From: a virus
Virus record (IMG/VR): IMGVR_UViG_3300009154_000080
Span: 1 to 50,022 of that record
Length of the DNA: 50,022 nucleotides
Strand: one strand, 5' to 3'
Shown: piece after piece, positions 17,373 through 43,644 of the stretch
How the letters are laid out: each line of letters begins with the position of its first letter
Position numbering within the stretch: the stretch's first letter is position 1
Notes under the pieces: generated by a model
What the model was told of the DNA's origin: nothing
Seen by the model: only the letters and a program-made list of their open reading frames with translations
Databases searched by the model: none
Translations under genes and position numbers: made by a program

Positions 17373-17376
17373 ACCA

Positions 17377-17402: not shown

Positions 17403-17415
17403 AGGGAGATAACCC

Positions 17416-21103: not shown

Positions 21104-21129
21104 ATTTCAGTATTTCCTAAATGTTCATG

Positions 21130-21137: not shown

Positions 21138-21148
21138 TCTATTTCTTA

Positions 21149-24073
21149 CTAAGCAGGAGTGTATGCGCCCCATGATATTACAACAAATCCATTTTCTCCG
21201 TTTGCACCAGTGAACTCATTAGGTGCCGTTCTATCAATAGAATCTGCACCAAATCCACCGAGTCCAGAATATGCATATATATCTATTGGTAGTGGGTTAC
21301 CATTTAATACTGTGCCACTAACAAGCTTAACAATATATCCGGTACCCCCATCACCCCCTGCGCAACTAGAATCATCAGCAGTACCTTTTTGACCAGCTGC
21401 TCCGTTAAGCCCATTCCTGCCTACATCCCCTGTTGCGATAGTTATAGAACCGCCTGTGCCGCCTGAGCCACCTGAGGTAGTAGTAGCGCCTATACCACCC
21501 GACCCACCGTTTGCTGTTACAGTCACTGAAGTAGGAGCCGGTATAGCAACTCTAGAAAATCCACCTGGGTTCGCGCTCTTTCCTCTAGTAGATCCAGAAG
21601 CTGAGAGAGCAGTTCCACCTTGACCAATTGTTACAGTAATGTTTGTATTTTTGGATATTACTGTGCTCGCAGCATCTATATAATTGTAAGTTGGAACATA
21701 GGAAACTACTTTACCAAATATTGCACCTGCTCCTCCGCCACCGCCACCGCCGCCGCTGCCAGCTTCTGTGGCACTACCGCCGCCACCACCTGCGCCAATT
21801 ACCAATAATTTCAATCCTCTCACAGAATAGGGTAGTTTAAATGTATCTGAAGAAGTAAAAGCATATGTTGCGGCTGGTTGTCTAGCAGTAACTGTGACCG
21901 ACGGGGATAATGCGTTAGAAGCATTACTTACAATTTTTAGACTATCTGTATATTTTCCAACATCAGACTTAGATACTGCTTGGAGAGTTAAGGTTACAGA
22001 ATCTCCGACATCCAATGATGTTACACTAGAAGGTGAAACAGTGAACTTGCCGTCAGTTGAAGATAACGAAGTAATATGCAATACTGCATCACCATCATTT
22101 GTCAATTTAACTACAGTAGTTGGCATAGTAGTATCATCAACGTCAAATACAGGGAGAGAATACGATGTTTTATCTAATTTAATATGCGGTTTCTTGGTCT
22201 GCACCAAACCTGTTACTGTTATTTGATAAGTTCCTTTATCAGGATCATTGCTTACAATATTAATTGTATCAGTATAACGTGTTCCACTTTCAGAAAGAGA
22301 ACTCCAACCAGCAAATGTAAGCTGAAATCGCGTTACTGCACCTGATATTAGTGACACTGGTGTAGTAATGCCCGAGGTTGAAGTATAGCCAGCAACACTA
22401 GATATACCAGTGACATTCAGTGAAGCTGCGCTTTGTTCAGTATTTTTAATATTTACTGTTATTGGTGCATGGGTATCCCCGCTATAAACTGTACCTAAAT
22501 CTATTGTAGTTAGAGCAGTGGAAGGGCTACCATCTTGATAAACAAAAATATTTGGATATTTTGGTATGTAAGTATAATACACTGGTATTTGTAAAGTTCT
22601 ACTATAAGGTGTAGTGGTGTCACTGTCAACAATGATAGTATCTATTTGTTGTGTGCCATTAACTTCATAATCTTGTGGCAAAGATACTGTCACTTGTGCA
22701 GAAGTATTTGGTGCTATTACTGCAGTCGAGGAAGATACCGAACAGCTACTAGTAATACGCGCTATACTGTTTATTGTTAAATCTCTAGCTGAAACACCAC
22801 TGCTGGTATTCTTTATTACAAGTACCTGAGAATTTGGTACATTGTTTATACCTAAAGTCCAATTATTAATTGGCGTTACAATGGCGCCCGCAGCAGGTGT
22901 AACAGTTGATGGATAAACTTGGATTCCTGCTTGTTTAACAGTAATTGTATAAGAAACAGTTATTGTTATAGTTCCAGCATTGCTGCTGATAGTTACTACA
23001 TCCGTTATGCTTGCTGACAATTGTTGTCCTGTCACTTTAAACTTCGCAGACGCAGATGGTGCAATAGAACTACTGGTTAAACCAGATATAGCTGCAATGG
23101 TGCCACCAGAAGCAGACACAATACTGCTAATAGTCAATGTCGCTTGGCCTGAATTCGTGATTGTGACTTCCTGTTCCGGACCAGTTGTGTTCGTATCATA
23201 ATATGCAGTAGATAACTGTGTCGGGCTCACTGTTATTCCTGGTAATTTAGCAGCCACTTTCAACGTTACAGGGTTAATTGTTATTGTTGGATTTGAAGTA
23301 TCATCACTTTTAATAGTAATAGTATCTGTATAATCACCGGGTGTTCTGCGTGTTGCAGTTAATGTTACATAACCTGAGTTCGATGAAGGAATTGCAGATG
23401 AAAAGCCACTAACATTTATAACGCCATATAAACTGAGGACTTCTGATATATTAACAGTTTTACCATTGCCATTATTATAAAGTGTAACTGTTGTTGACGG
23501 CAGGCTGTCTCCATCGACCATTGAAAATGACACTGTTTTACTGGTTGATAAACTTGAACTTGCAAAGGATATAGCAGAATATTCGGGTAAAATATTCACT
23601 GTCACAGGTATTGTTAAGGTACTTGTGTCCAACGGCCCTGTGTCAGCAGTAATAACTATTGTGCCACTGGCACCTGAACCTATCGACAATCCGTATACAA
23701 CCACCGTGATAATTGTTGATTGTCCTGGTGTAACAGTTGTCGGACTGTTAGGTGTAAGAGTAGTAGAGTAATATGAACTGTCACTGACAGAAATATTTGT
23801 TATAGATAAATTCCGGGTGCCATTGTTTGTGATAGTTATTGTTTGTGCAGCGGATGAGTGATTTTGATAAACATTAAATGTCAAACTAGCTACGTTTGTA
23901 GTTAAGCTACCAGCCGGCGTAGGATAGATTTGTTCCCAAGTACTACCGCCTATCTTGTTCCAAGCTGTAACCACTGGTTGCCAGCCACTGCTATTTTTGA
24001 CCCACATTTTTTTAACTGCTTTCCAGTTACCAGAAATAGGATCTTTAATCCATATAGTGCCTAATTTTGCCAT
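21149..24073 (-). CDS. Ig-like repeat structural protein with glycine-rich tip (974 aa)
   Basis: After a start that looks like an attachment segment (GTIWIKDPISGNWKAVKKMWVKNSSGWQPV), the protein consists of about six to seven Ig-like modules of around 100 residues. Each carries the pattern ITITNNGTRNLSITNI ... TVTPGQSTIITV, similar to the ASPM/SPD-2/Hydin-like domains of bacterial surface proteins. From about residue 750 it turns into a glycine-rich region (GAGGGGGSATEAGSGGGGGG, then FVVISWGAY), like the tip of the 966-aa fibre. This suggests a rod ending in a host-binding tip. It is read with the fibre genes. Chaperone dependence, as for T-even gp38 adhesins, is not shown. Confidence 0.78.
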   Translation of the reverse strand: MAKLGTIWIKDPISGNWKAVKKMWVKNSSGWQPVVTAWNKIGGSTWEQIYPTPAGSLTTNVASLTFNVYQNHSSAAQTITITNNGTRNLSITNISVSDSSYYSTTLTPNSPTTVTPGQSTIITVVVYGLSIGSGASGTIVITADTGPLDTSTLTIPVTVNILPEYSAISFASSSLSTSKTVSFSMVDGDSLPSTTVTLYNNGNGKTVNISEVLSLYGVINVSGFSSAIPSSNSGYVTLTATRRTPGDYTDTITIKSDDTSNPTITINPVTLKVAAKLPGITVSPTQLSTAYYDTNTTGPEQEVTITNSGQATLTISSIVSASGGTIAAISGLTSSSIAPSASAKFKVTGQQLSASITDVVTISSNAGTITITVSYTITVKQAGIQVYPSTVTPAAGAIVTPINNWTLGINNVPNSQVLVIKNTSSGVSARDLTINSIARITSSCSVSSSTAVIAPNTSAQVTVSLPQDYEVNGTQQIDTIIVDSDTTTPYSRTLQIPVYYTYIPKYPNIFVYQDGSPSTALTTIDLGTVYSGDTHAPITVNIKNTEQSAASLNVTGISSVAGYTSTSGITTPVSLISGAVTRFQLTFAGWSSLSESGTRYTDTINIVSNDPDKGTYQITVTGLVQTKKPHIKLDKTSYSLPVFDVDDTTMPTTVVKLTNDGDAVLHITSLSSTDGKFTVSPSSVTSLDVGDSVTLTLQAVSKSDVGKYTDSLKIVSNASNALSPSVTVTARQPAATYAFTSSDTFKLPYSVRGLKLLVIGAGGGGGSATEAGSGGGGGGGGAGAIFGKVVSYVPTYNYIDAASTVISKNTNITVTIGQGGTALSASGSTRGKSANPGGFSRVAIPAPTSVTVTANGGSGGIGATTTSGGSGGTGGSITIATGDVGRNGLNGAAGQKGTADDSSCAGGDGGTGYIVKLVSGTVLNGNPLPIDIYAYSGLGGFGADSIDRTAPNEFTGANGENGFVVISWGAYTPA

Positions 24074-24084
24074 GTTCTATATCT

Positions 24085-25266
24085 TTAAATTTGGAACCAA
24101 AAATCACCTACAATTCCATCACCTGATGATGGTGTACTTGAACTAACTGTTTTGCCGCTGCCTTGCCATTTTGAATTAGTTGCACTGCCTATAGCAGATT
24201 GTGTAAATGCAGTTGTGGCTATTAATGTGCTGCTGTCTGCGCTGGATGGGGTAGGTGCGCGCGGTGAACCAGTGAATGTTGGGCTAGCAATCCTTGCATA
24301 CGTTGAACCTAGATTATCAATTTTACTGTCTACATACACTTTTGTAGCTGCACCAAAATTACTCAGAGCATTAGCTGCTAATCTAACTTCACCAGTAGAC
24401 CCAACGATAGTCAATGCTTTGGTGTTTATAGTAGAAGTGTTTACATAGAAACTCAAATCTGCATTGTTAACAATATTACGAATAGTCATATCACCTGAGC
24501 CACTTGATGCACTAGTGATCGAGCCGCCGCTTGATCCACCTACATTAATATTTGCTGCAAATGTTTCAGTGATGTCTTTTCTAGCGTAATTTGAATATGA
24601 AAAACTCCCCAGTTTTTGACTATCAGTAGCTGTGCCATTGAAGATGCCGCCGTTACTCGTATTCAAATTCAATCCAGGATATAATTTTCCGTCACTGGTC
24701 GTGAAGTCTGGTATAGGTGTAAATGTAAACGCTGCAACCCAGCTAAAAACAGCAATCAAGTTGCCATTAGCATACATCTTGAGGATCGGATTGCTATTGT
24801 TAACATCAGGTATTGAGCCACCTTGGCCGTTCAATTTACTGAAAGATGGTCCTACAGTAACCCAAGATGAACCGTTATAAGATTTAAATTGATCATTTGT
24901 GGTGTCCCACCATTGATCTCCAACTGCTGCACCAGCTGGTGCTGAGGTCGTCGCACTGAATGCTGAACCAGTGACTAAATTAAAAGCAGATCCATTATAG
25001 ACTTTTAATCTGTTTAGAGTAGTATCGTAGAATAATTGGCCGGTTATAGGTTTCGAAGGTGGATTACTTGTAGTTTGGGCAAAATTTTCCAGCAACTTAA
25101 CAAAGTTTTCATTTTGAATTTGTCCATAATTAGGGTAATTTCTGCCTATCAGATTCAATGAAGTACTATTATTTGGCGGATTTACGTCCGGGCCATTTGC
25201 GGTACCATCATACAGAATAACTACTTGTTGACCTCTGCTGTTTGTAATCGTATAACTATTTGCCAT
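24085..25266 (-). CDS. Tail fibre-type protein (393 aa)
   Basis: The N-terminal 130 residues (NLIGRNYPNYGQIQNENFVKLLENFAQTT, then GQLFYDTT and GDQWWDTT) are paralogous to those of the 966-aa fibre. A shaft follows, ending in FTGSPRAPTPSSADSSTLIATTAF, a phrase I know from many phage tail fibres, then a short C-terminal FWFQI. It lacks a glycine-rich tip. AGGATAAT lies before the ATG, 11 nt after the preceding gene. It is probably a shorter fibre or a connector using the same baseplate socket. Confidence 0.8.
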   Translation of the reverse strand: MANSYTITNSRGQQVVILYDGTANGPDVNPPNNSTSLNLIGRNYPNYGQIQNENFVKLLENFAQTTSNPPSKPITGQLFYDTTLNRLKVYNGSAFNLVTGSAFSATTSAPAGAAVGDQWWDTTNDQFKSYNGSSWVTVGPSFSKLNGQGGSIPDVNNSNPILKMYANGNLIAVFSWVAAFTFTPIPDFTTSDGKLYPGLNLNTSNGGIFNGTATDSQKLGSFSYSNYARKDITETFAANINVGGSSGGSITSASSGSGDMTIRNIVNNADLSFYVNTSTINTKALTIVGSTGEVRLAANALSNFGAATKVYVDSKIDNLGSTYARIASPTFTGSPRAPTPSSADSSTLIATTAFTQSAIGSATNSKWQGSGKTVSSSTPSSGDGIVGDFWFQI

Positions 25267-25277
25267 TGTCTATTATC

Positions 25278-25943
25278 CTATAGTGTGCTTAAATTGGTCA
25301 GTGTTTGTATTCTGACTGTGTAGTCGATTTGAATTAATCTATTCAAGCTTTTTTGTACTGGATGAAATATAACGTGAGTTAATAATTTCCCTGTGGTACT
25401 AAGACCACTGGATCCATCAGTGCTGCGAGCTTTCAAGCCTAATTCATCAAAAGTATATGTATCATTTAGATTAGTGGTATTATCAAACGCTTGTTGCCCT
25501 GACGGCTCACCATAATCTAACAAGCATGATACTAAAATATCGGTGTATACTTGACCCGGCACATGTCGAATTTCTATTTTGTTAGAAAGTGGGTTTAGAT
25601 TTGCAGCTGCATTATCATCTACAATTTTGGCATAAGTTGGATTATAAAGATTGGAGTTTTGTGTATTTGTGTTTGCTGGCAGATAATTGATCACACCAGT
25701 TGGGTCAACACTAGTGCCGCCGTTGCCAAAATGCATTTCGTAGATATAACTTTGACCCTTATTTGCTAATGTATACGCAATTGCTTCTGATATGTTTTCA
25801 TAATGAATAGCATTTCGCTTGTTCACATAAACTTCACCAGATTCTGGATCAAAAATCTTGATATGGCCCTGAACATACATACCGCCTAATTCATCGTGCT
25901 GCTTATCAGGCGTTGGTTTAGATTTCTTATTGAGATCGTTCAT
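25278..25943 (-). CDS. Conserved virion-type protein (221 aa)
   Basis: GHIKIFDPESGEVYVNKRNAIHYENISEAIAYTLAN is a start I associate with structural proteins of cyanophage-like T4 relatives, in the neighbourhood of gp7-gp10 baseplate genes. A strand-rich body follows with IEIRHVPGQVYTDILVSCLLDYGEPSGQQ and TYTFDELGLKAR. AAGAAGG and two ATAAATA boxes lie upstream. It sits between the giant protein and the fibres, so an attachment or baseplate-periphery role is likely. Confidence 0.72.
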   Translation of the reverse strand: MNDLNKKSKPTPDKQHDELGGMYVQGHIKIFDPESGEVYVNKRNAIHYENISEAIAYTLANKGQSYIYEMHFGNGGTSVDPTGVINYLPANTNTQNSNLYNPTYAKIVDDNAAANLNPLSNKIEIRHVPGQVYTDILVSCLLDYGEPSGQQAFDNTTNLNDTYTFDELGLKARSTDGSSGLSTTGKLLTHVIFHPVQKSLNRLIQIDYTVRIQTLTNLSTL

Positions 25944-25972
25944 AATACGTATTTATTACCTTCTTATCCTTG

Positions 25973-25980
25973 TATTTATG
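25973..25980 (-). promoter_or_regulatory. T4-type late promoter box before the 221-aa virion gene
   Basis: The leftward strand reads CATAAATA here, 29 nt before the ATG, with AAGAAGG (25959-25965) between them. A second ATAAATA (25950-25956) is too close to the ATG to serve as its promoter. Confidence 0.55.
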
Positions 25981-25981
25981 G

Positions 25982-28900
25982 TCATGAGATGTTGTTCTTT
26001 AGATACGTAACTTCATTTGAAGTACTTCCTTCGAATCCTGTGCCGCTCAAGAAGCTTATAGCATTGGCAGGCAATACTTGTAAGTTTGCACTATCTTTAT
26101 TCAAGTAAAAATGCTTGGCAACATTACTGTCAAATATTCCGCTGCTATTCACTAGTGTAATCACATTGCCAGTAGAGTTAGCTGATACTACTCCGGTTGC
26201 ACCTGTTGTGGTTTGCGTGATCACATTGCCAACATTTACAGTAACATTAGCTGTCACATAAAGTGTTTGTGTCGCCGACGTATTATACCATGTATCTTTG
26301 TGCGGAATTCCCGGCAGCGGTCTGCTTGTTAAATCTTGTATTACTGCTGCGTTTGAATACAGGAACTTGTTTTGTTGTGTAACATAAGCAGCTGCCAAGT
26401 GTACATCAGGTGCGCCAGTGCCATTTACTGCTCTACGAAGTTGACCTAATCTATTGTGCACAGTATCCAATTCGTAGTAAGTGATAATTTCTCCATTGAT
26501 CAGTATAGTGCCCGGTGTGGCAGTACTTGGGCTTGGAACTGATAGCAATGCAGCATTTGCTACAAATATATTTGAATCAGTGATATGTAGATTTGCTGTC
26601 AAGAACGTGCTATGAGTAAATGTGTTGGCATCAATTTTATAATATTTCGGCCATTGCTTGCTATCAGCAGAATTGACATTAGCTCTCATGTTATGTACAA
26701 CTGCATGAGCCAAATATGTAGTATTGGCGTAGATATTACTGTATACTCTCATTACCATAGTATCATAGGTAATACCCGGGATCAGTTCTTCAGGAGCATG
26801 ACTGCTAAATGTGTCATAATATGCGCCGCCAGAAACTACAATATCTTCTACTCGTGTGCCAAGAACACTTTGAGTATCAGTGATGATAGCAACATTGCTG
26901 GCTGTTAATCCTGTGTCGTTGCCGTCTAATGTTAAATTAGATACAGTATTAAAAATACCGTATGTATTTGGCAAAGTAATAAAGCTGGTATTTACAACCG
27001 TTGTTCTTATTACAGCACTTGCATCGTTGCCTATCTGTCCGAGAATGCTGCCGTATGAAGCAGTCAAATTTCCGGACAATGTAATTTCAGCAGTCCTATA
27101 TCCATAATTACTTTGAATAATACTGTCCAAGAAGATTGGATTATTTTGATCGTAGTAATTTAATGTTACGTTGGCGTTTGCTGCAATATAATCCAGTGTG
27201 CCTGTGACATACAAATTGCCTTCTGTGACTTCTTCAATCAACACTGTGTTTGTTTTAGTATCAATACTCACTGGAACGTATGATGTTGACAAAGATGTAA
27301 ATGAAGGTATCAGTGATGAGAATTTAGCCGTTGTGTTAGCCGCTTGATCATTTATGTATCCATTAGCTATAAAAGTGCCTGTGATACTGACTACACTTAT
27401 TAAATTGCTGTTGATGGCATTAACGGCTACTATCGCAGTTGCGCCAGTTACTGGCTGAGTGAGTATATTACCGCTGTTGGTTGTTATATTTGAGCTTAAG
27501 GCAAAAGTACCTGTATTGAGTGTGCGATTGTATACCGTAATTACTCCTCCTGTGGTAGACAACCCAGTGCTCACTGTAATTACGTTACTTGCTGATTGAG
27601 CTAGCACCTTGACATTTGCTGCGCCTTGTTTGATATAATCACCAGGTTTCACAATTACTGCACCATTGAGATTTACGATATTCACATCATTATTAATAAC
27701 AGTAAGATACTGACCTCGACTATATTGTAAATCTATGAAGTTAATTAGATCGGTGTCTTCGCTCGTGAGCCTTGTCAGATCATCCACAACAACATTAAGA
27801 GTATTGGTAATAGTGCCAGTATGCACTATATTGGTATTGGTTGTTGAGGTAATCTCATCGAATTTTACACCCTGCACTTTGACACCAGGGTATTCAATGC
27901 CATAAACTAATTTTTTTAAGTCCTTGGAAAGCATTGTATTGTCAGGCAGATAACAAGCCCATATTCTATCGTTGGCATTATCAAAACTACCTGCAGAAAT
28001 TGTTTGGTATTTGGTGTAATCAAACACATTGATTACTCGAATCGGTCTTACTAGTGTATCAACATTGTTTATTGTGATATTACCATTTCTCTTAAAGAAT
28101 GTGCCACTGACATTAGATACAGTAATGATATTATCGCTGGTAACCGTAGCTGCAAGCGTAGCGTTGCCAGATTGATTAATTTGCCCGATATATGCACCCG
28201 CGGTAGCAGAAATGTTTCCACTGAGTTTTATTATAGCTGAACTGTAAACATCTGTTAACGCCTGATAACCTTGCCCTTTATAACTCACAGTTGTGCCAGC
28301 GGTGACAGTTGTGTTAGGTTGCCAATCTATAATTTGAGTATCGTAACTAACTCTATCAAATTTAATAACAGAATCAAATGAACGAATTTTGTTATAACTC
28401 TTGTTTTCTGTTTGAGTGTAATATAACATTGGCGATGTATCACCAGTTGATATTGTTCTCATGGAATAAAGACCTAGATCAGAACCGTCTGCATATACAT
28501 TAGTATTACTAAAAAATCTACCCTGAACGTTCCACATTGGAACTTTAGTTATCCATCTAGTAACTTGTTCTTCGTATTTTCCAGATGCATTGGAAAAAAC
28601 TGTGCCTGTCGCCCAAGGCATCGATGATCCACCAGACGATTGGGTTAGAATATTGCCTATATAGACATTTGCATTACCACTTAACCATATTACATCCGTC
28701 GCTATAGCTGGTCTAACTAGCAAATTAGCAAACTCTGAGAAAATATACGAATTGCTTTCAAATGTGCCTATCACATCAACCAATGTAATAACATTGCCAT
28801 TTGAACTCACATACACAGTGCCAGATGCATTTGTATTTGGTTGTATAATTAAATTTCCATTGTATACTGTCACTGGTTTTTCTAGTGTCAAGTTTACTGT

Positions 28901-31900
28901 TGGAATACTTTCTAAATAGTATTGACCAACAAGCACTGGATAACCAACTGCTCCTGTGCTAGATCCGTTTATATAAATTTCTGGGGTACTAGTAAAATTA
29001 TATCCAGGATCCAGGATTTGAAATTTTTCAACAGTATTGGTTTCTGCATTAATTATTGCCCTAATATTTGCACCAGTGCCGCCCCCACCTACAACAGTGA
29101 CACTGGGTTCTAGAAAATATCCATTGTCAGAAATAATAGTCAAAGCACTTACTGAAGAGTATGTGTTAGCACCGTTATCATATATGTAATTGGTTGTATC
29201 AAAGGTTCCTGTCACATTCAAAAGATTTAAAATTCCATCTACGCTGCTGCTTATAACTGTGCCTGTAGCAGTATTACTGCTTTGTGTTACAGTGTTTCCA
29301 ACTTGCAACGTGACAGGAGGATTAAGAAACAATGATACAATAGGTGTCTGTATACCTCTACCGCCGTTTGTTACCAAAACTTCTTTGATACTATACGTGT
29401 GATTATTTTGCCACTGGCTATAAACTGGTGAACTAGCCAATCGATTAGTATCAGTACTCAATGAACCGTCTGGACTATGATATCCTCCAGCAGTGCTATC
29501 ATAAGTGCTTGGTAAATCAAAGTCTGTCAAATCTGCTTTGAAATCGTCATTTCCCTGATAATCCAAAACATATTCACGAAGACTAGATCTGTAAGGCTTT
29601 ACTTCATTGATATAACTTTCATAATACGTCTGATTGTCACGAATATAATTCGGGAACTGTTCTAATTTCTTGAGTTGATGGATCACACTCACAAAGCTAG
29701 TCTTGAAAATCCAATCTAAGTCTTTCTGCTCTGTCAATACATAATTGATCATAAAGAAAAACATTTGATTCAAGTTTTCTTGAAGGCTTTTTACAAAAAT
29801 ATCATTTAAAATTGTGTCAAAAATGATCCGAATTTCAGTAGTTGCATCAATCGTGGGATCATATAGATCTGCACTGAATTGAATAGTGCCATTTTGTATA
29901 CCTACCAACTCGCGTATGCTATCACTGTTGTACCGATATACTTCAAATTGCCCACGACCGTTGTTTAAAACCTTGATTGTCTTGCCTTCTTGAAGAGTAA
30001 AAAATTTTAGTAAGTCATTAGAATTATCTACTACGTAATCTGTTTTTACTGTGTAATCATATGTACTATCATACCAATCAACTTTACTCCAATAAAAAGG
30101 AATATTATAACTTTGACTACGAACCAAGGTCCACGGGCTATTTGTATTCCCTGAATAAGAGTATAATGCCCATATACCACGTTGATATTCATCATTTAAA
30201 ACTAGAACAGTATAGCCAGCTGAAATCTTACTGAGATCTATATAGTCTAATTCAGTCTTGGTAGCAGTAGTAATATCGTATAATTCATCTGATGGCTGTG
30301 GTTCACCTTCATACAGATCGTCAATACGAAACTCTTCTGCGACCGGAACTGTAATTAAAACATTATTAATATACTCTATCCAGTTCTTTAACGCAGAAAA
30401 TCTGTCTACAAAGAACGATTGTCTAGGTCTGTTATAGATGCCAATTTGATTTTGTGGACTGAGTGCTGGATCGGGTACTATTTTACCATGGTTGTCTATG
30501 CCAGATAAACTATCTCGAAGTTTGTCAATAAATCTTGTTGGTATTTGACTGCTAGCACTACCTTCTTGAATTAGTGCATATTCACTATGAATTACATTTG
30601 TGTTCTTTAAACTATCATAGTTTACATGTAGAATAATGTTGTTTGAAGTAATCTTATTAGTAATACCATGAACACTAATAGTATCTGAGCGAAGAACCTG
30701 CACATAAGGGATACCTTGTGTCGCAGGATTCAAAATTATTTCTTCAATTGCAGCTACGCTATTGCTCTTGTTGCTATCCTGATCTATTGTTGTTTTGCCG
30801 CGAACCCAGAAATAATAATGACTGCGTACTGTTTTGCTAACTGCATCTACATAACTTTCTACCACATAAGCAGTATTATTTGGATATCTAGGGATACCAG
30901 AATCTTTATAGCTACTTGGTGGCAAATCACTTACTACCCATTCATATAATTCAACGGAACTTCCAGGAAAAAGTTCTCCCCAAGTTCCTTCACGGTAAAC
31001 TAAACTGCCTTGTTCATAATCAATATAACGCATTGCAGCTAGGTTCCACCAAATTTTTCCAACTTGATTCTTGCCCCAGGGGCTGTTTGTGTTTACCGAT
31101 AATTCATTTGCTGACTCATCAGTAGAACCAGCAACGTTATACACAGCAGGATCATATGGTGTTCGATAATCTATGTCTTGATCTGCTATTCCTAAAATGC
31201 GCCCTTTAGCTGGATCAATGTGGTCCAGTCGAGCAAGAACTTTATTGTCTGTTTTATCGTAGATATAGAAATTGGTAATGCTGCGTATATCGACCCGCGG
31301 TTCTTGAGTGTGTATAATATCCCACCCTACATTGCCCGAGAAATCATTGTACACATAATATGTGCCGGTTCGGGGTACAGCAGTAAGTAAGCCACTGACA
31401 GGATCTTCTATAATTTTATTTCCTGAATCGTTTTGTGCGCCCACCAATAGCGTGTAGTCATTCATGGCTAGACTACTACCAAATAAATCGCTGTTTTGTA
31501 AATTGTTGTTTTGTAATCTTTGAACCAACACATATTGGTCTTCTGCCGGTCCTGCTAAATCGCCTCCTACTAGACCATACACATACACCGAACCTGAGCC
31601 GTAGATGCTATCTAAGAAATTTGTGCTGTCCTGATCAAGAGTAGTGGTAGTTTGGTCTAGTGTCAAAGAATTGTAAGTTGTACCACCAGTGGCACCGATG
31701 ATTAGTTTTCTAGAATCATAACTGCTGATTACATGTGCTCCAAAATTATCGACCCGATCGGTCACTGGATGCCTAAATGTTTGACCAGATTGATAAACAT
31801 CGAGTCCTAAATCTCTTAGCGCAGTTCCTTGGCCTGGTGCAATAATTAATTTCTGATATGGTGTCACTACATTACTAGAAATAGAAAGAATACCTGAATC

Positions 31901-34900
31901 AGAAACTGACGCAGTAACGCCGGATATTCCTGCAGTATTGATATTCGCTGCTACATTTGCTAAATCACTTTTCCAGAATTTAACTATTTGTCCATTGAGT
32001 CTAATACTATCTCCAATTGTAACAGTTGGCGAATATTTATTACTACTAATTGTACCGTAAGCAGCACCACCATTAACAAATCTATAAACAATGCCACTGT
32101 AATAACCTATTTCACTGAAACCAGGGCTAGATACAAATATATCAGCATCATTTCCACTTATATGAGAAGTGATGCCAAACACAGCACCACTGGTAGGATT
32201 ATCCGCTACAATTCTTTCCATAAATTGAAACTTGCTAGTTTCTACATTAATCTTGCTGCCTATTATTGGAGCTGCAGTAAATGTAACTACATTACCAGCT
32301 ATATTATAATCAGTGGTAATTTTTTTGTCTGTGCCATCTATCGTTACTCGTACAAATCGAGGATCGATAGCATTCAAAGTTGCATAGCTTTGACTAGTAT
32401 TAGCAATAAATGTCTCTATACTTCTGTCGTAAACATAAATTGCGCCAGCAGAACTAATTGCGTTCACTGTTTCATATGGGGCACTTATAATAGTTTGGCT
32501 GGAATCACTGGTTGTTTTGATCGTATAGCCAAATTTGGCAACACTGCTGTTTGATATCGTATTTGCATATGTGTACTGTGTGATTGGAGCGATTGTTGCA
32601 TTGGCAGACGTAATTATATTAGCGTAAAATACTTCAACGTTTCCTTTGTTCGGTGCACCCACAAACAACCATCGCCCATCAGTGCTTGCACTTATGCTTT
32701 GTCCAAAAGCATCTCCGATGTTTGGGCTCCAACGGCTGCTGATTTGTTGCAGTTTAGTAAATGAAGAATTTGCTGCCCAGTACAAATACACGAATACATT
32801 ACCAGACTGGGTAGAGCCATTACCAGGTGCACCTATATATAGGATATTACCTGAGCTATCTAGACTTGCTCCAAAATTACTCAGCCCAGTGTCTGAAGAA
32901 GATATATTGGCGACCAGAGTTAACGTATTACCATTGACTGTGTTTGATAAGAAAGTCATTACTCTGCCTGAGTCAGTCGTCGGCATGCCGGCAGCTGCAA
33001 ATGTCCCGCGTTGATTTATAGTAGTAACTGAACCAAATCCACCATCAGTGACATAATTATTTGCAGACATTTTCATGTTAGCATTAAAATCACTAACATT
33101 TGCTGTCCACGGATCACTCTTGTTATACACTGCCCAAGTGCTGGTATTGGCATCATTGTCTACCCACAGTTTATCGTTTGGTAGCCATCCGCGAATTGGT
33201 GTGACAGAATTTAAATCAGTAGTAGTTTTAATACGACTGCTGATAAATTTAAATACTGAACCTGTTCCTGCAATAGTCTGCAAATTCTTGATAGTAGTAG
33301 CTATCGCTAATGTAATGATGTTAAACTTCGTTGGGCTGTCAACACTATAAACTTGATACACGCCATCTACACGAGCATCAAATCCTTTGATTACAATCAA
33401 ATCACCATATACTACAGATATTTTTTTGTCGGTAGTTACTGTTGAAATATTATCAACATTATAGGATAAAGAAACTATACTGCTTTCAGTCTCAGTGAGG
33501 CGGTAAACATTCCAATCATTATTGAAATCTTTGGCACACCATATTTTATAGCCAATTCCCATTGAACTGATATTATTTGTCAGACTTGAGTAGGTAGAAA
33601 TATCGTAGATTGTTGCATCCACATCATTCATGTTAACATAACCAGCAGTGTGGATATCGTTTTCATAGATGCTGTATTCGTCACGATTTAAAAATATATT
33701 TGCTTGATATCCTGAGCCTGTACGATATAGCTGATCGGGCGTGACACCAATGATCTGATCTACTGATGAACCATTGTTGGGCAATAATGTTATTACGATA
33801 GGGTCACTACTATATTGACCTTCAATAAGCTGTACTTCAACAAATTTATTGTTTTCTAATGCACCATACTCGCCGATTCGCAATGCCCATTCTTCATATA
33901 AATTCACCGTGCTGGTGACGCCATTGAATCCAGCTGCAGTGAATGCATCTACTGCATTAATTGTTCCTTTTTCTTTAATAAATCCTTGATAAAATTTAGC
34001 TTGAATTGATCTATCGATACCAAAATCTGTCATATATTGACGTTCTTGGAATCCAATTACTCTATCTGAAAATTCATCAAATCCACCTTCAGTTGAAGGA
34101 TTATCTAAATCAAAGAACTGATTAAATTTCCCTGCATTGTATGTAAAATTAGGCAATAAACCTGTTTTAATTTCATTAGTAGGTATTTGTCTCCATTGAC
34201 CTGGGATAAAATCTGTAGTGGCAATAATGTCAGAGAGTGCAGCATAGTAGAAATTTTTATAGGTTATTAGTGAACCTTTCTTGTAGTCTAGTCCAGGTTG
34301 CCAGTCTGACACAGTTGGACTGTTATATAAAAATCCTCCTGGATTCAGCGCACCAGTCCATCCACCAGTTTTGCTGCCAATCAATTTCATCCTATATTGT
34401 CTATTACCTAGCTCTGGTTTATAAATGATATCATTGAACACAGTAATATTATCAAATATCATTACATGTTCGTATTCAACTATATCCAGAACTGCTAATG
34501 CAATAGTTTGTATAGAGTTAGCAGTGAGCTTGAAACTAGTATCGTCCCTAACCACTGTAAATTGATTGTTTTTGATAAAGTTGAAACTAGTATCGAGTAC
34601 ACGACTTGCACTAGGAGAGTTCTGTACATTATCTACAATACCTTGAGTGTTGTTTACACGAATAACATTGAGTATTGGACTCAAAATGATTACACTACCT
34701 ACAGGCCATCCTTGTTGACTCCAACTCAAAAATTCCTTGCTACTCAGAACAAAATCGCGTTGTTCAGTTAAATCTGAATCATAATCTGTGAATTGTATAC
34801 CAACACCTGTGAGGTATCTTCCATAACTCACTAAGAAATCAACTAGTTGTTGTTTATTGGAAAACTCAAATCCATACGGAACAGTTACTTTATATTTCTG

Positions 34901-37900
34901 ATAATCTTTATACACTACTGCTCGTTCATTCTGAACACTTATCGCATAAGAATTGTTATTTGCTAGACTAGGCACAATAGTAAAATAAGGATTGTCTAGA
35001 TCATACCCACTGACTGTATATCCGTTTTCACTGCGTTCTACTATTACTGCACTGTAAACAATGGTCTTTGTTGGAGAAGATTTATTCAGTTGTATGGTAT
35101 AGTTCTCATTGGGTATTACCACGCCCTGATTAGTACTAGTTGGACTACTTTGTTCAGCAATAACTTCAATCAATGATGAGTCTGTATACCCAGCCATTTT
35201 ATATGCAAGTTGTACTGATACGTATTGCAAATAACTGTTAATTTTAGTTATTGGGTCTATGCCATTGTATCTCAAGTAATCAGACACCCAGTTCAGATAA
35301 CCTGCAGCTCGTTTGATACTACTACCTGTAGTATCGCCGTTCAAATTAACAGTGGACGGAGTTATTCTCTGAAGGTTAGTACCTAGGACGTACTGATCTA
35401 GCTCCGTATTTTTATAATATTCACCAACATTCATCAATGTTCCAAAATAAAATGAAGGGAAAGCCAATGCTAGTGTTTGTTGCATAGCGTATGGAAAATC
35501 GCTACTGCGACGCCAGGCTGTTTCAACTGGTCCTTGATTTCCAACAGCATAACTTGCATTAGTATGACTGCTATCAATTGAAGCTACTGCGAACTCATTG
35601 GGTGGGCGTAACACGCCATGTTCATCTACTGGAATAATTTTACTCAACCCAGGTCTAGCAAATCTGCTGTCAATGCCGGCGCGAGATCCTGCGTAAATGT
35701 AGCCTTGTTCTAAGTCGTCCCACAATACACGGTTTCCACCAGTGTATGGTGCCGGTCCGTATCTGCCATTCCACCAGTCTGGCTGTTCTGAGAATCCCAA
35801 CATTTCCCAAGGATGAGTATGTGGGCGAACAGTATCATAGAAATAGTCGAATATAGCACGCCAGGCGCCAGGTAATTGTTCCAAATTAATACTATCTTTA
35901 AAATATCTGTAGTTCCAGGTAAATGGATTACTTGCTTCAAAATAACTATTGGTAGTAAAATCTACTCTATTGGCTCCTGTCCATTTCAGAAAACTACGAG
36001 TTAATATTTGGTTAAACTCAGTTATGTTATATTTTGAGTCCCTAAACTTGCCGGGTATATGTTCGTATATATCAAAAACATTGCTAACGTAATTGATCTT
36101 GATATTATTATAAATTCTCTTTTCAAATTCTAATAATAAATCGTCTCGCATGTCACCGAAAGCAGGCGTGATACTTCCGTCATGACCTTGAATAACATAA
36201 ATTGGATTTTGATAAGTATCGTCCATATACATCATAGGAGTATATTTGGGATACAGCCCTAACTTAGTTGGTGTTTCTGGTATATAATTACCATCTGTGT
36301 TGCTATATTCGTTTATGGTGATTACATCATTTACATCTAGTGGGTAAGTAGCATTGATTGTTACACCAGATCGAGTAATATCAAATGCATAATCTATACC
36401 TTTGGTAAGCTGTACATTATTCACATAAACTAAAATTGCTTGATTACTTAATGCAGTATCATCAAAAATATTGCTTATTTCATAATCCCTAATTTCTGTA
36501 TCTAGAACTGTATAGGTGATAGTATTTTTAATATCACCGTATGGAATCATGTCACTATAATACCATGGGAATGCTTTATTTTTTACTTGATTGATATTCT
36601 TGAGAATCTGGTCACAGATGCTAGGGATATCAGTTAAGTCAACAGAATCAGATAAAGAATAAAATGATTCTAAATATTTGTTTTTGATTTTTTGATATTC
36701 ATGCCGAGCTAAATCCAAACTTTTTATTAGATTTGCATTTGGGTCTACAAGAAATAGTTGGCTATAAAGCAGAGGACTAGCATGTTGTACAATACTTCCA
36801 CCTTGCTGCTTTATAGGTATATCTCTGAGATTACTGTCACCAGGTAAAGTTCCAACAATTCTAGTAGTATTTTCAGCCAGTGCGCTAAGATGATTACGCA
36901 TCTGCCCAAGTGTCAGGCTAGAAAAGTTTTTATTTTCCGTATTAAGATCTAAATTCTTAGGTATCTCATAATAGCCAATTTGACTTACATCAGTGCTGTA
37001 AATTCTTATATCAATCCTATCGCCTGTCACCAGTGATGTATCATCGACCCTAATATAAGTGCTTACTCCGATTATCTCTTGTACATAAAGAGAAGAATCC
37101 AATAACTTACTATTTTTGTATACCCTAACATGTGGTACAGTTTTATCTTGAATAGCAGGAGTTATATCAATAATGAAATATTTGTTTATACCATCGTAAA
37201 TGTTGCTGATAATTTGGAACTGTTGAGATGGTTCTACTTCAGTACTCCACATGTTTTTGACTACATAATCTGTTAGATCTGAATTGATTCTAATCAGCCC
37301 AATGCAGTTTATATTCGTAGTGACATTGATATTGGAAACATTCTCTAGGTAAGAAAATGTATCATTATCAAAATTATTTTTAAACTGAATATCGCCAAGT
37401 TGATTAAAATTTCTATAGCTCAGAGGAAATCCTAGGATCGAGTCATCTGCTCCAGTTCCAATATCATAAGAAAAAACTTTTGTGCCAGTAAAATTACTAT
37501 TAGGATAGACATCCGTATTTGACAAACTATAGCCATTTTGGTCTATTGCATCAAATAGAGGCGATTGATTCAATGAAATTTTTGCTTGAGATGGTAGCCA
37601 ATTAGCGCCGTCAAAATAATATTCAACTCCGGTGATAATTCCGTCATCTGTGATGACACCATCAATTGCAATCAAATTATTGTAGGGTAATATTTCTGCA
37701 TCAGATGCAAGCTGCAACGTAATTACATATTTGCCATTGACATAAGAATACTCTACTACATAGATCTTATTTTTTACAGTCGAATCAATATCATTACCAA
37801 ATATTATCCGTTGGCCATCTGCAAGTGTTATGTTGTTCGGGAGGGTAACAACTTCCTGAAGTTCAATGCCATTGAATGCGTCAGTAAAAGTACTTGTCAA

Positions 37901-39808
37901 CAATAATATATTAACAGGCTTCTTGGCTTTTCTTCCAAATTGATATAATTGAATATCATAATCAAATTCAATAATTGGTCTATTAGAGCGAAGGGTTTGA
38001 TCCAATAAAATCGTAGCATTGTTATAAACGGCAGTTTGTTTTATAACATCAATATGGAACCAGCGATTACTTCTACTCCAAGGATTTAAATCTTGGCTAC
38101 CTCTGTTGATTGTGATATAGTCTTTTTCTACACCGAATCCTTCAGGACTAATAAAATCTTTAACATCTATAAGTCTAATAGCAGTTCCAACACCTTCTAC
38201 ATAGAATGTATTGTCAACATACTGATTGGGTATAACTCCAACGGAAAATCTTACTTTCAATCCATTAGTAAATTCTACCCCATTTGGGCTCTTATAAGTT
38301 TTTCGTCCAAGTATTTTTCTAACGTCTATAACGTTATCAATAACACTTGATAACGTAAATTCTCCCCGGTATTGAGTTTCTACACCGTCTTGATAATACA
38401 AAATAGGCAACGGGGCAGTTATATGTGGCACTCTTTCAAGAAAATCAGTAATATTATCCCGATAATAGGTTAGCTCTCCTCGCGAACTACCATTACGAAC
38501 AAATATACGTTGATTTACTGCTACTTGTATATCTGGTATTAATTTAACAATTGGGTCTGCAGGGTTTCCTACTAAAGTAATTTTCCATAAACTTCTACGT
38601 TGACTGTTGGGAACTGTGGGATATGCTGCATAGTTATATTCTGTAAATAATAAGGAAGTCCCAACAGCTAAAAATAGTCCAATTGGTTGATTTAAGGTGA
38701 TTTGACTACCTGAGATATTTGTTATTCTGATACCAGTGGCTAGCAACTGATCGTCACTTAAATACATGCCTACTTTCAATCCAGCTGTATTATCAATAGT
38801 AAGCACTGAATCAGTGGAAGTCGTCGATGAAAGTAATTGATGGGTTACTGATTCAGCATAAGTTTCTCCATCGTATAAATCATTTCCTGTCCAAAATACA
38901 TCATCTGTATCTTGATTTATAAAAACTAATGTTTTTCCTGCAAGATTACTAGTTACTGTATCAAATCCATTAAATGGTGCTGCTTGTAAAATTTTAAGAC
39001 TAGTGTTTTGAACATCACTAAAATGCAGGTCAGTACTGAGATCTGCATATGCAACCAGTGGCATTTGTAAGTATTTGTCTTGTTGGGTTGACTGAGGTAC
39101 GTTAAATGTAATAGTTCCATTATCTGTACCATTATTCTCTACACCCAACACATCTCGTGTGCTGACATTTTTCTGATTAGTTCTGTATCCTTTGATGCCG
39201 GGATCACTTTGAATCCAAAAAGGATAACCAGGTTGATTTATTATAAATTTGTATGTGCCACCGTGCCCTAGATTTAAAGTTGGATTTTGCGTTGTGCCTA
39301 GTCCACTGAAATGATAGCTACCAGTTGAAGGGTCACGAGTAACAATGTATGTGCGTTCTTTTTCAATAGCACTTCCGTATACGTCAACTGAGTCTGGACC
39401 GTTCTCTAACCAATAATATTGACTAAAATTGATAAATTTGTCGAAATCAAATCTACCATCAAAGCTATATGATTCGCTAGCAAATAATCTGCTGTGATCT
39501 GTAGTAATGCCACCATAATATTTTATTTGGTTTAGTAAATCCAAATAGCTACTAAAAAACTGAACATTTTTTTTCTGATCCTTAACAACAATGCTAGGCT
39601 CAAGCTGATAATTCTCGCGTGCAACAGTTGGCTCAGGCTGATAATTATCTGTGCTTTTAAATGTCGGAGCAAATTTTCGACCAATATATCCATTTACTTT
39701 TCGTAAATCAGGTTGACTAACCAATTGGTCCAGGGTAGCATTCAAGAATTTCTTGTTAGTGTCTGAGCGGAATATCTCAGGTAAGAAATTTACTGTCTTT
39801 ATCGCCAT
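25982..39808 (-). CDS. Giant virion structural protein (4608 aa)
   Basis: The frame runs 13.8 kb without a stop. It follows gp6 directly and occupies the slot of T4 gp7-gp10 baseplate wedge genes. The N-terminal 1500 residues (FLPEIFRSDTNKKFLNATLDQL, FINFSQYYWLENGPDSV) contain strand-rich domains resembling large structural proteins of cyanophage-type T4 relatives. About residues 2300-2800 hold FG-GAP-like repeats (LFVGAPNKGNVEVF, LIIGATGG, LLVGAQND), the integrin-type beta-propeller signature. Residues of about 3500-4570 carry several copies of a GN-x-x-TQ...TGTF-type repeat. No signal peptide or membrane helix. It may be the wedge periphery or a long fibre base. The ribosome site (GGAAATAAG) is modest. 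Confidence 0.85.
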   Translation of the reverse strand: MAIKTVNFLPEIFRSDTNKKFLNATLDQLVSQPDLRKVNGYIGRKFAPTFKSTDNYQPEPTVARENYQLEPSIVVKDQKKNVQFFSSYLDLLNQIKYYGGITTDHSRLFASESYSFDGRFDFDKFINFSQYYWLENGPDSVDVYGSAIEKERTYIVTRDPSTGSYHFSGLGTTQNPTLNLGHGGTYKFIINQPGYPFWIQSDPGIKGYRTNQKNVSTRDVLGVENNGTDNGTITFNVPQSTQQDKYLQMPLVAYADLSTDLHFSDVQNTSLKILQAAPFNGFDTVTSNLAGKTLVFINQDTDDVFWTGNDLYDGETYAESVTHQLLSSTTSTDSVLTIDNTAGLKVGMYLSDDQLLATGIRITNISGSQITLNQPIGLFLAVGTSLLFTEYNYAAYPTVPNSQRRSLWKITLVGNPADPIVKLIPDIQVAVNQRIFVRNGSSRGELTYYRDNITDFLERVPHITAPLPILYYQDGVETQYRGEFTLSSVIDNVIDVRKILGRKTYKSPNGVEFTNGLKVRFSVGVIPNQYVDNTFYVEGVGTAIRLIDVKDFISPEGFGVEKDYITINRGSQDLNPWSRSNRWFHIDVIKQTAVYNNATILLDQTLRSNRPIIEFDYDIQLYQFGRKAKKPVNILLLTSTFTDAFNGIELQEVVTLPNNITLADGQRIIFGNDIDSTVKNKIYVVEYSYVNGKYVITLQLASDAEILPYNNLIAIDGVITDDGIITGVEYYFDGANWLPSQAKISLNQSPLFDAIDQNGYSLSNTDVYPNSNFTGTKVFSYDIGTGADDSILGFPLSYRNFNQLGDIQFKNNFDNDTFSYLENVSNINVTTNINCIGLIRINSDLTDYVVKNMWSTEVEPSQQFQIISNIYDGINKYFIIDITPAIQDKTVPHVRVYKNSKLLDSSLYVQEIIGVSTYIRVDDTSLVTGDRIDIRIYSTDVSQIGYYEIPKNLDLNTENKNFSSLTLGQMRNHLSALAENTTRIVGTLPGDSNLRDIPIKQQGGSIVQHASPLLYSQLFLVDPNANLIKSLDLARHEYQKIKNKYLESFYSLSDSVDLTDIPSICDQILKNINQVKNKAFPWYYSDMIPYGDIKNTITYTVLDTEIRDYEISNIFDDTALSNQAILVYVNNVQLTKGIDYAFDITRSGVTINATYPLDVNDVITINEYSNTDGNYIPETPTKLGLYPKYTPMMYMDDTYQNPIYVIQGHDGSITPAFGDMRDDLLLEFEKRIYNNIKINYVSNVFDIYEHIPGKFRDSKYNITEFNQILTRSFLKWTGANRVDFTTNSYFEASNPFTWNYRYFKDSINLEQLPGAWRAIFDYFYDTVRPHTHPWEMLGFSEQPDWWNGRYGPAPYTGGNRVLWDDLEQGYIYAGSRAGIDSRFARPGLSKIIPVDEHGVLRPPNEFAVASIDSSHTNASYAVGNQGPVETAWRRSSDFPYAMQQTLALAFPSFYFGTLMNVGEYYKNTELDQYVLGTNLQRITPSTVNLNGDTTGSSIKRAAGYLNWVSDYLRYNGIDPITKINSYLQYVSVQLAYKMAGYTDSSLIEVIAEQSSPTSTNQGVVIPNENYTIQLNKSSPTKTIVYSAVIVERSENGYTVSGYDLDNPYFTIVPSLANNNSYAISVQNERAVVYKDYQKYKVTVPYGFEFSNKQQLVDFLVSYGRYLTGVGIQFTDYDSDLTEQRDFVLSSKEFLSWSQQGWPVGSVIILSPILNVIRVNNTQGIVDNVQNSPSASRVLDTSFNFIKNNQFTVVRDDTSFKLTANSIQTIALAVLDIVEYEHVMIFDNITVFNDIIYKPELGNRQYRMKLIGSKTGGWTGALNPGGFLYNSPTVSDWQPGLDYKKGSLITYKNFYYAALSDIIATTDFIPGQWRQIPTNEIKTGLLPNFTYNAGKFNQFFDLDNPSTEGGFDEFSDRVIGFQERQYMTDFGIDRSIQAKFYQGFIKEKGTINAVDAFTAAGFNGVTSTVNLYEEWALRIGEYGALENNKFVEVQLIEGQYSSDPIVITLLPNNGSSVDQIIGVTPDQLYRTGSGYQANIFLNRDEYSIYENDIHTAGYVNMNDVDATIYDISTYSSLTNNISSMGIGYKIWCAKDFNNDWNVYRLTETESSIVSLSYNVDNISTVTTDKKISVVYGDLIVIKGFDARVDGVYQVYSVDSPTKFNIITLAIATTIKNLQTIAGTGSVFKFISSRIKTTTDLNSVTPIRGWLPNDKLWVDNDANTSTWAVYNKSDPWTANVSDFNANMKMSANNYVTDGGFGSVTTINQRGTFAAAGMPTTDSGRVMTFLSNTVNGNTLTLVANISSSDTGLSNFGASLDSSGNILYIGAPGNGSTQSGNVFVYLYWAANSSFTKLQQISSRWSPNIGDAFGQSISASTDGRWLFVGAPNKGNVEVFYANIITSANATIAPITQYTYANTISNSSVAKFGYTIKTTSDSSQTIISAPYETVNAISSAGAIYVYDRSIETFIANTSQSYATLNAIDPRFVRVTIDGTDKKITTDYNIAGNVVTFTAAPIIGSKINVETSKFQFMERIVADNPTSGAVFGITSHISGNDADIFVSSPGFSEIGYYSGIVYRFVNGGAAYGTISSNKYSPTVTIGDSIRLNGQIVKFWKSDLANVAANINTAGISGVTASVSDSGILSISSNVVTPYQKLIIAPGQGTALRDLGLDVYQSGQTFRHPVTDRVDNFGAHVISSYDSRKLIIGATGGTTYNSLTLDQTTTTLDQDSTNFLDSIYGSGSVYVYGLVGGDLAGPAEDQYVLVQRLQNNNLQNSDLFGSSLAMNDYTLLVGAQNDSGNKIIEDPVSGLLTAVPRTGTYYVYNDFSGNVGWDIIHTQEPRVDIRSITNFYIYDKTDNKVLARLDHIDPAKGRILGIADQDIDYRTPYDPAVYNVAGSTDESANELSVNTNSPWGKNQVGKIWWNLAAMRYIDYEQGSLVYREGTWGELFPGSSVELYEWVVSDLPPSSYKDSGIPRYPNNTAYVVESYVDAVSKTVRSHYYFWVRGKTTIDQDSNKSNSVAAIEEIILNPATQGIPYVQVLRSDTISVHGITNKITSNNIILHVNYDSLKNTNVIHSEYALIQEGSASSQIPTRFIDKLRDSLSGIDNHGKIVPDPALSPQNQIGIYNRPRQSFFVDRFSALKNWIEYINNVLITVPVAEEFRIDDLYEGEPQPSDELYDITTATKTELDYIDLSKISAGYTVLVLNDEYQRGIWALYSYSGNTNSPWTLVRSQSYNIPFYWSKVDWYDSTYDYTVKTDYVVDNSNDLLKFFTLQEGKTIKVLNNGRGQFEVYRYNSDSIRELVGIQNGTIQFSADLYDPTIDATTEIRIIFDTILNDIFVKSLQENLNQMFFFMINYVLTEQKDLDWIFKTSFVSVIHQLKKLEQFPNYIRDNQTYYESYINEVKPYRSSLREYVLDYQGNDDFKADLTDFDLPSTYDSTAGGYHSPDGSLSTDTNRLASSPVYSQWQNNHTYSIKEVLVTNGGRGIQTPIVSLFLNPPVTLQVGNTVTQSSNTATGTVISSSVDGILNLLNVTGTFDTTNYIYDNGANTYSSVSALTIISDNGYFLEPSVTVVGGGGTGANIRAIINAETNTVEKFQILDPGYNFTSTPEIYINGSSTGAVGYPVLVGQYYLESIPTVNLTLEKPVTVYNGNLIIQPNTNASGTVYVSSNGNVITLVDVIGTFESNSYIFSEFANLLVRPAIATDVIWLSGNANVYIGNILTQSSGGSSMPWATGTVFSNASGKYEEQVTRWITKVPMWNVQGRFFSNTNVYADGSDLGLYSMRTISTGDTSPMLYYTQTENKSYNKIRSFDSVIKFDRVSYDTQIIDWQPNTTVTAGTTVSYKGQGYQALTDVYSSAIIKLSGNISATAGAYIGQINQSGNATLAATVTSDNIITVSNVSGTFFKRNGNITINNVDTLVRPIRVINVFDYTKYQTISAGSFDNANDRIWACYLPDNTMLSKDLKKLVYGIEYPGVKVQGVKFDEITSTTNTNIVHTGTITNTLNVVVDDLTRLTSEDTDLINFIDLQYSRGQYLTVINNDVNIVNLNGAVIVKPGDYIKQGAANVKVLAQSASNVITVSTGLSTTGGVITVYNRTLNTGTFALSSNITTNSGNILTQPVTGATAIVAVNAINSNLISVVSITGTFIANGYINDQAANTTAKFSSLIPSFTSLSTSYVPVSIDTKTNTVLIEEVTEGNLYVTGTLDYIAANANVTLNYYDQNNPIFLDSIIQSNYGYRTAEITLSGNLTASYGSILGQIGNDASAVIRTTVVNTSFITLPNTYGIFNTVSNLTLDGNDTGLTASNVAIITDTQSVLGTRVEDIVVSGGAYYDTFSSHAPEELIPGITYDTMVMRVYSNIYANTTYLAHAVVHNMRANVNSADSKQWPKYYKIDANTFTHSTFLTANLHITDSNIFVANAALLSVPSPSTATPGTILINGEIITYYELDTVHNRLGQLRRAVNGTGAPDVHLAAAYVTQQNKFLYSNAAVIQDLTSRPLPGIPHKDTWYNTSATQTLYVTANVTVNVGNVITQTTTGATGVVSANSTGNVITLVNSSGIFDSNVAKHFYLNKDSANLQVLPANAISFLSGTGFEGSTSNEVTYLKNNIS
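26110..29310 (-). repeat. Degenerate beta-repeats in the C-terminal quarter of the giant protein
   Basis: At least seven copies of a roughly 50-60-residue unit can be read. Examples are GNVITQTTTGATGVVS ... GIFDSN, GNILTQPVTGATAIVA ... GTFIAN, GNLIIQPNTNASGTVYVS ... GTFESN and GNTVTQSSNTATGTVIS ... GTFDTT. Some are adjacent, others are separated by unrelated linkers. They are protein-level repeats; DNA identity between copies is low. Confidence 0.7.
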
Positions 39809-43254: not shown

Positions 43255-43644
43255 TTATTGGGACACTGAAAATACTCTAGTAGTACCCGGCGAATTTTTA
43301 TCAAATTGCAACTTAAGAGTTTCTACTTGATTTGTGGCTCGATAAACCAGAGTAATCATGATTTGAATTCCATATTGCTGCTCAGTGATGTCAAATTGTG
43401 TTACACCCAATCGGGGATCATAATTTATTATTTGTTTGATATCGTCAATAATAGACTGACGCAGAGTTTCAGTAAATGGCTCAAACAAGCTGCTCCAAAT
43501 CATAGTACCAAAATCAGGCTGCATCACTCTCTCACCTTTTTTAGTATTGAGATAGTTTATAAGATCCTGTTTAGCAAGCTCAAAGTCTGTGACTCTGAAT
43601 TTTTTAATCCGATTGTATGTAGAAAAACCGTTGTATATAGTCAT
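43255..43644 (-). CDS. 25: Baseplate wedge protein (gp25, GPW/gp25 lysozyme-like fold)
   Basis: The 129-residue length matches T4 gp25 (132). The family signature KKGERVMQPDFGTMIWSSLFEPFTE is clear, and the C-terminal TLVYRATNQVETLKLQFD completes the fold. gp25 sits at the sheath-wedge joint and has a lysozyme-like fold without known activity. No strong ribosome site is visible, and the short gap to gp5 (8 nt) suggests coupling. Confidence 0.94.
   Translation of the reverse strand: MTIYNGFSTYNRIKKFRVTDFELAKQDLINYLNTKKGERVMQPDFGTMIWSSLFEPFTETLRQSIIDDIKQIINYDPRLGVTQFDITEQQYGIQIMITLVYRATNQVETLKLQFDKNSPGTTRVFSVSQ

Follow-up and report, generated by a model that had tools for sequence, protein, structure and literature searches.

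In the T4 baseplate, gp7 joins two gp6 chains within a wedge, and six wedges make up each baseplate. The gp7 gene follows gp6, and in the same type of gene order J is followed by gpI in P2 and gp47 by gp48 in Mu. The cyanophage S-SSM7 (our locus L219) has the order gp25-gp6-gp7 with an annotated gp7 of 3007 aa and a separate gp8 adjoining, and the N-terminal part of this gp7 has a block with the residues KGT in common with T4 gp7 (96% probability in profile comparison). Two gp7 genes of ~3000 aa are annotated in the S-SSM7 locus, at 12562-21585 and 22651-31656, with a 340-aa gene between them.

Half-megadalton baseplate proteins of phages have been catalogued, yet they are unexplained. Virion proteomics has been published for several phages with a giant gene next to gp6. 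CBB_236, whose identity we checked by its position beside CBB_237 (gp6), was detected in CBB virions (21 peptides, 7.72% coverage; PMC5259590), as was gp245 of phAPEC6, a protein of 381.88 kDa whose gene adjoins gp244, 'baseplate wedge' (17 unique peptides, 7.6%; PMC7247149). In RsoM2USA, ORF361 (2541 aa) matched a virion band of >288 kDa; it adjoins gp6 (ORF362) and gp25 (ORF363), and its homology is taken as given in that paper (PMC8504454). Here we describe a 4608-residue protein encoded beside gp6 in a 50,022-nt stretch of viral DNA, the whole of which is called the window below.

A single giant reading frame next to the wedge genes

The giant ORF occupies 13,827 of the 50,022 bases of the window (27.6%), which confirms an earlier sequence-only reading that had noticed a single 13.8-kb frame covering more than a quarter of it. 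The frame begins with ATG and its sole stop is at the terminus, with no internal stop in the translation; a plus-strand reading of the same interval contains 231 stops. From the base composition, 4608 stop-free codons would arise by chance with a probability of ~10^-132, and G+C by codon position exhibits a coding pattern along the full ORF. The strand had been left unstated earlier; the giant ORF and the gp6 and gp25 genes are all on the minus strand. The features of the locus are collected in Table 1.

Table 1. Features of the giant gene and its surroundings in the window (positions in the window, residues in the giant protein).
Feature	Position	Strand	Evidence and remarks
gp25-like baseplate wedge gene	43255..43644	(-)	Pfam GPW_gp25, E 4e-13; precedes gp6
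gp6-like baseplate wedge gene, 1128 aa	39819..43205	(-)	PHROG 10646 'baseplate wedge subunit', E 9e-298; directly upstream of the giant ORF
Giant baseplate-region ORF, 4608 aa, 511 kDa, pI 4.8	25982..39808	(-)	ORF list, translation
Residues 1-150, conserved N-terminal region	39359..39808	(-)	Conservation table; motifs NFLPEIF...NKKFLNAT...GYIGRKFAP...NYQLEPS
Residues ~151-450, conserved only in near relatives	38459..39358	(-)	Conservation table
Residues ~451-2250, main conserved scaffold	33059..38458	(-)	Conservation table, alignments
Residues 1328-1369, most conserved block	35702..35827	(-)	Invariant alignment columns
Residues 1919-1975, candidate gp7/gpI (Tail_P2_I)-like block	33884..34054	(-)	GF..R.Y......Q.KFYQGFIK.KGT.........EEW
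Residue ~2043, SGNH/GDSL insertion site in relatives	33680..33682	(-)	Module of ~220-400 aa; absent from the window
Residues ~2251-2840, variable insert with FG-GAP-like repeats	31289..33058	(-)	Conservation table, Pfam
Residues ~2841-3450, second conserved scaffold block	29459..31288	(-)	Conservation table, alignment
Residues ~3451-4608, variable C-terminal region	25985..29458	(-)	Conservation table
~55-residue repeat, 4 diverged copies	26084..29344	(-)	Residues 3489-3543, 3636-3690, 4107-4158, 4521-4575
Residues 3829-3852, CBM5/12-like carbohydrate-binding motif	28253..28324	(-)	PF02839
Residues ~4387-4483, mobile virion domain	26360..26650	(-)	ILINGE.ITY....L..LRRAVNGTGA
221-aa gene P0001	25278..25943	(-)	PHROG 11259; downstream of the giant ORF
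ATAAATAC copies in late-gene gaps	25949-25956, 25972-25979, 21129-21136	(-)	

We considered whether so long a frame could be an artefact, produced either by an assembly error that joined several genes or by a pseudogene-like run-on. Three relatives in which the gene is seen as two ORFs (L016, L027 and L041) would speak for this, but the split in L041 is a single frameshift and that in L016 a single in-frame stop, with homology otherwise continuous in both. Moreover, more than 60 contigs contain a single complete frame of 3.4-6.3 kaa, two relatives with 88% (L008) and 75% (L006) identity are collinear with the window protein over its full length, and a 382-kDa relative is detected in virions. 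The artefact is refuted, and its probability is negligible.

The gp6-like gene, which matches T4 gp6 in hhalign (E 1.7e-4), ends only 10 nt before the start codon of the giant ORF, so the giant gene comes directly after gp6, as gp7 does in T4. The place after gp6 that had been claimed for it was also borne out beyond the window. Of 110 metagenomic IMG/VR loci whose sequence reaches far enough upstream, 109 have gp6 no more than 300 nt before the giant gene, and 102 have gp25 as well. The order gp25-gp6-giant gene recurs in Phosso, Deifobo, RaK2, Atu_ph07, GAP32, 121Q, CBB and phAPEC6; an exception is Salicola phage SCTP-2, where ~90 kb separate the gp6 match from the giant gene. On the other side, 45 of the 70 metagenomic loci that could be tested have a P0001-like gene immediately downstream.

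Other late genes of the window showed features of their own. P0004 (43653-46922, minus strand) is a hub/spike protein with an OB domain on its N-terminal side and three separate enzyme-like matches behind it, at 530-684 (PHROG 4928/196), 772-923 (PHROG 27932, hub and tail lysozyme) and 965-1084 (PHROG 2649, endolysin, with a weak match to Pfam VanY), and may possibly be a single spike protein equipped with three modules for wall degradation. P0007 (18203-21103) and P0002 (24085-25266), two nearby tail-fibre-like proteins on the minus strand, have a common N-terminal region (NLIGKNY..YG..NENF.K.LENF; PHROG 14394), which suggests a common attachment domain. Four copies of ATAAATAC are present in the window, three of them within short minus-strand gaps between late genes, and this sequence could possibly be a variant late promoter; the T4 late core TATAAATA was found 0 times in the window, with 5.4 occurrences expected.

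The protein is a member of a catalogued jumbo-phage family

By hmmscan the window protein belongs to PHROG 10938, 'virion structural protein' (E=0, 1150 bits, 4 stretches). A tblastn search with its first 1603 residues retrieved 87 phage records, each with <60% identity, among them RaK2, K64-1, 121Q, PBECO4, GAP32, CBB, PA5oct, Atu_ph07, Phosso and SCTP-2. In IMG/VR the family was confirmed in at least 591 stretches by an alignment-based scan, and apart from the two close relatives above many full-length members have 35-60% identity. Complete members measure 3448-6282 aa, a range that leaves out the two pieces of the broken frame of L041. One family contig (L043) is 354 kb long, which fits jumbo phages. 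The window protein is thus a large new member of an already catalogued, functionally uncharacterised jumbo-phage family, and a giant protein adjacent to gp6 is not special to the window but is carried by the whole RaK2-like group and by many metagenomic phages. No match to the window protein was found in NCBIfam, nor by sequence among solved structures at E 10.

PHROG files PHROG 10938 under 'head and packaging', a label that spreads to phage annotations. It is contradicted by the fixed position of the gene beside baseplate wedge genes.

The sequence-only reading had also called the giant product a virion protein. For relatives this agrees with published proteomics (PMC5259590, PMC7247149, PMC8504454), since CBB_236, phAPEC6 gp245 and RsoM2USA ORF361 are present in virions; for the window protein we infer it from these relatives. 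Of the two outcomes that the sequence-only reading had named as refuting it, lack of the protein in virion mass spectrometry is answered by these relatives in favour of a virion protein; as to processed fragments, the band of >288 kDa argues, for RsoM2USA, against cutting into small pieces.

A conserved scaffold is broken up by variable modules

The protein consists of a conserved scaffold of ~2500 residues (1-150, 450-2250 and 2850-3450) broken up by variable modules. Residues 1-150 have 26-75% identity to all but the closest relatives. The segment that follows, most variable at residues 301-450, is largely absent from the RaK2/PA5oct types. The most conserved block has the motif RPHTHPWEMLGF...WW..RYG.APYT.GN..LW.DL, and the second scaffold block ends in ...DWIFKTSF...YINEVKPYRS..R.

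A predicted model of residues 1010-2190 (1181 residues) reached a mean pLDDT of 83.9. When it was searched with Foldseek against the PDB, no baseplate protein was among the matches listed, the best of which were small beta domains of E1 enzymes and endosialidases (E ~2e-3, low TM). Against a viral structure library the model mainly matched its own family.

The variable modules are of several kinds. The insert at residues ~2251-2840, largely absent from RaK2 and L028, has an FG-GAP_2 match with an E of 0.0013, below the Pfam cut-off, and is a probable beta-propeller. The CBM5/12-like motif in the C-terminal region likewise stays below the Pfam cut-off (E 3.6e-4, 20.9 bits against a cut-off of 26.2). 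Besides the four-copy repeat the C-terminal region contains a second repeat pair (residues 3855-3919 and 4237-4294), and its mobile domain matches residues 53-160 of S-SSM7 gp7 (91.5% probability), where it forms the N-terminal insert of the cyanophage protein.

Relatives carry further modules. Four of them (L362, L372, L373 and L380) have a GDSL/SGNH acylhydrolase at the site near residue 2043, with Lipase_GDSL_2 above the Pfam cut-off and E values down to 3e-15, and a shorter similar insert is found there in L368; with this module the wedge may possibly incorporate an esterase that acts on polysaccharides. In L322, L336 and L340 (6190-6282 aa) an extra insert of ~900 residues is located near window residue ~700, and an E1_FCCH-like beta domain, above the Pfam cut-off only in L322, is all that was recognised in it. 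That the scaffold takes up modules at fixed places would be expected if those places face outwards.

These modules bear on the earlier suggestion of a baseplate-anchored appendage. The suggestion is supported in part, as appendage-like and presumably exposed modules are present (FG-GAP-type, CBM5/12-like and repeats in the window protein, GDSL in relatives). In a stricter form, the protein would be a fibre, a spike or a whisker that is docked on the wedge by its N-terminal part and lacks the role of gp7, that job being done by a different, unrecognised protein. A composition that is beta-rich and rich in Ser, Thr and Asn, the C-terminal repeats with the CBM-like and FG-GAP-like motifs, the esterase inserts of relatives, and the fact that gp7 was matched neither by HMM nor by fold all favour it. 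On the other hand, it is the scaffold that is conserved, although the phages that have it differ strongly in their fibres: CBB and RaK2 are unlike in their tail-fibre genes (PMC5259590), yet the giant gene persists. In addition, the gene is fixed beside gp6 in 109 of the 110 loci, unlike host-range genes, and the long-fibre proteins of RaK2 map to a different part of its genome (gp526-534; PMC10253068). An appendage in this strict sense is therefore considered unlikely.

Wedge and pin proteins of T4 and the KGT block

The sequence-only reading had further considered a fusion of several baseplate functions in the place of gp7-gp10, and had named a segment-wise profile comparison with T4 gp7, gp8, gp9 and gp10 as a check. 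To this end, overlapping 300-aa slices of the giant protein were compared by hhalign with profiles of T4 gp5-gp12 and gp53, P2 gpI, Mu gp47 and Mu gp48. The comparison gave no match to any of these profiles, with probabilities of at most ~2% for T4 gp7-gp12, and leaves a fusion of gp7, gp8, gp9 and gp10 unsupported. In S-SSM7, gp8 is a gene of its own beside the giant gp7, showing that giant size in this slot need not mean a fusion. A true fusion, holding gp7 plus gp8 and/or gp10 functions, is suggested by the size and position of the protein, by the variable region that separates two conserved blocks, and by the absence of a gp8-gp10 homologue among the neighbouring window proteins tested, but with T4 gp8, gp9, gp10, gp11 and gp12 reaching at most 2.2% probability against any 300-aa slice it is judged improbable. 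Split genes were also considered as evidence of fusion and were rejected for L041, where a frameshift accounts for the split, and for L016, where a single stop does.

T4 gp7 itself gave no match in the profile-profile comparison of 300-aa slices, and its Pfam domains PF21427, PF21428 and PF21456 were not found in the window protein. Nor did Pfam Tail_P2_I (PF09684) match it at E 10, the positive control, a gene of L221, scoring 3e-10. In L221, a 595-kb phage, this Tail_P2_I gene lies close after gp6 and has the same KGT block.

A candidate block of this type is nevertheless present in the window protein at residues 1919-1975, within which K1947 and G1948 are invariant across an alignment of 10 diverse full-length members. 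The segment 1891-2030 is the best match of the protein to the Tail_P2_I profile, with a score of 26.1 (12-17% probability) against a null maximum of 19.8 from 192 reversed or shuffled windows. With the cyanophage gp7 profile the same segment scored 25.4 (null maximum 19.9) and was the best site bar the mobile C-terminal domain. The KGT alignments have HHalign probabilities of 5-17%, and the agreement among members is not independent, because they are related to each other. A hand-aligned KGT HMM gave scores near 0 bits with forward and reversed members; it ranked the KGT site first in many members, which is not significant. PHROG gp7 families did not match the KGT segment even at E 10, and a focused model of the region was poor (pLDDT 69) and uninformative in a structure search. 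The gp7/gpI-like character of the block is thus suggestive but not proof, and we have for this reason not filed the window protein as a member of gp7 or Tail_P2_I.

Discussion

The reading that we prefer, and regard as rather probable, is that the window encodes a RaK2-type wedge protein in the gp7 position, in which a conserved scaffold carries exposed, exchangeable modules for host contact. The scaffold of ~2500 residues would join the gp25/gp6 wedge, in six wedges, in the way that T4 gp7 connects two chains of gp6. The long exchangeable modules, inserted in the scaffold or appended C-terminally, would hang outside the baseplate, where they could make contact with the host surface, bind it or modify it by trimming, or could hold in place the fibres and other proteins that surround the baseplate. 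That the protein is equivalent to gp7 and binds gp6, and that its modules lie on the outside and act in host contact, is what we infer, the contact with gp6 from synteny and that with the host from the type of module. The protein sits in the place of gp7 and probably works like it.

A more far-reaching version, in which a gp7-type wedge protein has turned into a modular host-contact platform, its scaffold replacing gp7 and swappable inserts surrounding the baseplate, is put forward tentatively, and we rather doubt it. If true, several half-megadalton chains would be present in each baseplate, and recognition of the host surface and its enzymatic trimming would take place within the wedge and not in separate pins or short fibres. 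Judging by the esterase and carbohydrate-binding inserts, the baseplates of jumbo phages may carry host-surface enzymes inside a wedge protein. Placement in the gp7 slot, together with a scaffold, a candidate gp7/gpI block and sites of insertion that are all defined, amounts to a concrete, testable model for such proteins. In a family as abundant as this one, a right annotation would in many cases supersede the label 'hypothetical' or 'head and packaging'.

The window protein resembles T4 gp7 (1032 aa) and P2 gpI in gene order, following gp6 or J, and may resemble them in a KGT turn between two helices, which in P2 gpI too is followed by an EW motif. In contrast to them it is 4-26 times larger, and the profile matches are not significant.

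With S-SSM7, gigantism of a baseplate protein in the gp7 slot is seen a second time. Its gp7 (PHROG 2885/4406, 'baseplate wedge initiator') is like the window protein in gene slot, giant size and one mobile domain, and the KGT block is a candidate for a further common feature. Overall homology between the two was not found, the matches being weak, biased ones to C-terminal repeat domains. Furthermore, the candidate core of the window protein is ~1900 residues in and not near the N-terminus, and in S-SSM7 there are two giant gp7 genes, with gp8 as a gene of its own.

The closest likeness is to PHROG 10938 members such as RaK2 ORF070w (3326 aa), CBB_236, 121Q gp582, phAPEC6 gp245, GAP32_230, Atu_ph07 gp180 (4449 aa), the Phosso protein (4555 aa) and the Deifobo/PA5oct type (3857 aa). 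The window protein is longer than the enterobacterial members, and both its FG-GAP-type insert and its additional C-terminal repeats are largely missing from RaK2. With the RaK2-type members it nevertheless has in common a similar length, the placement of the gene after gp25-gp6, and homology over the scaffold at 24-30% identity, with the conserved blocks in matching order.
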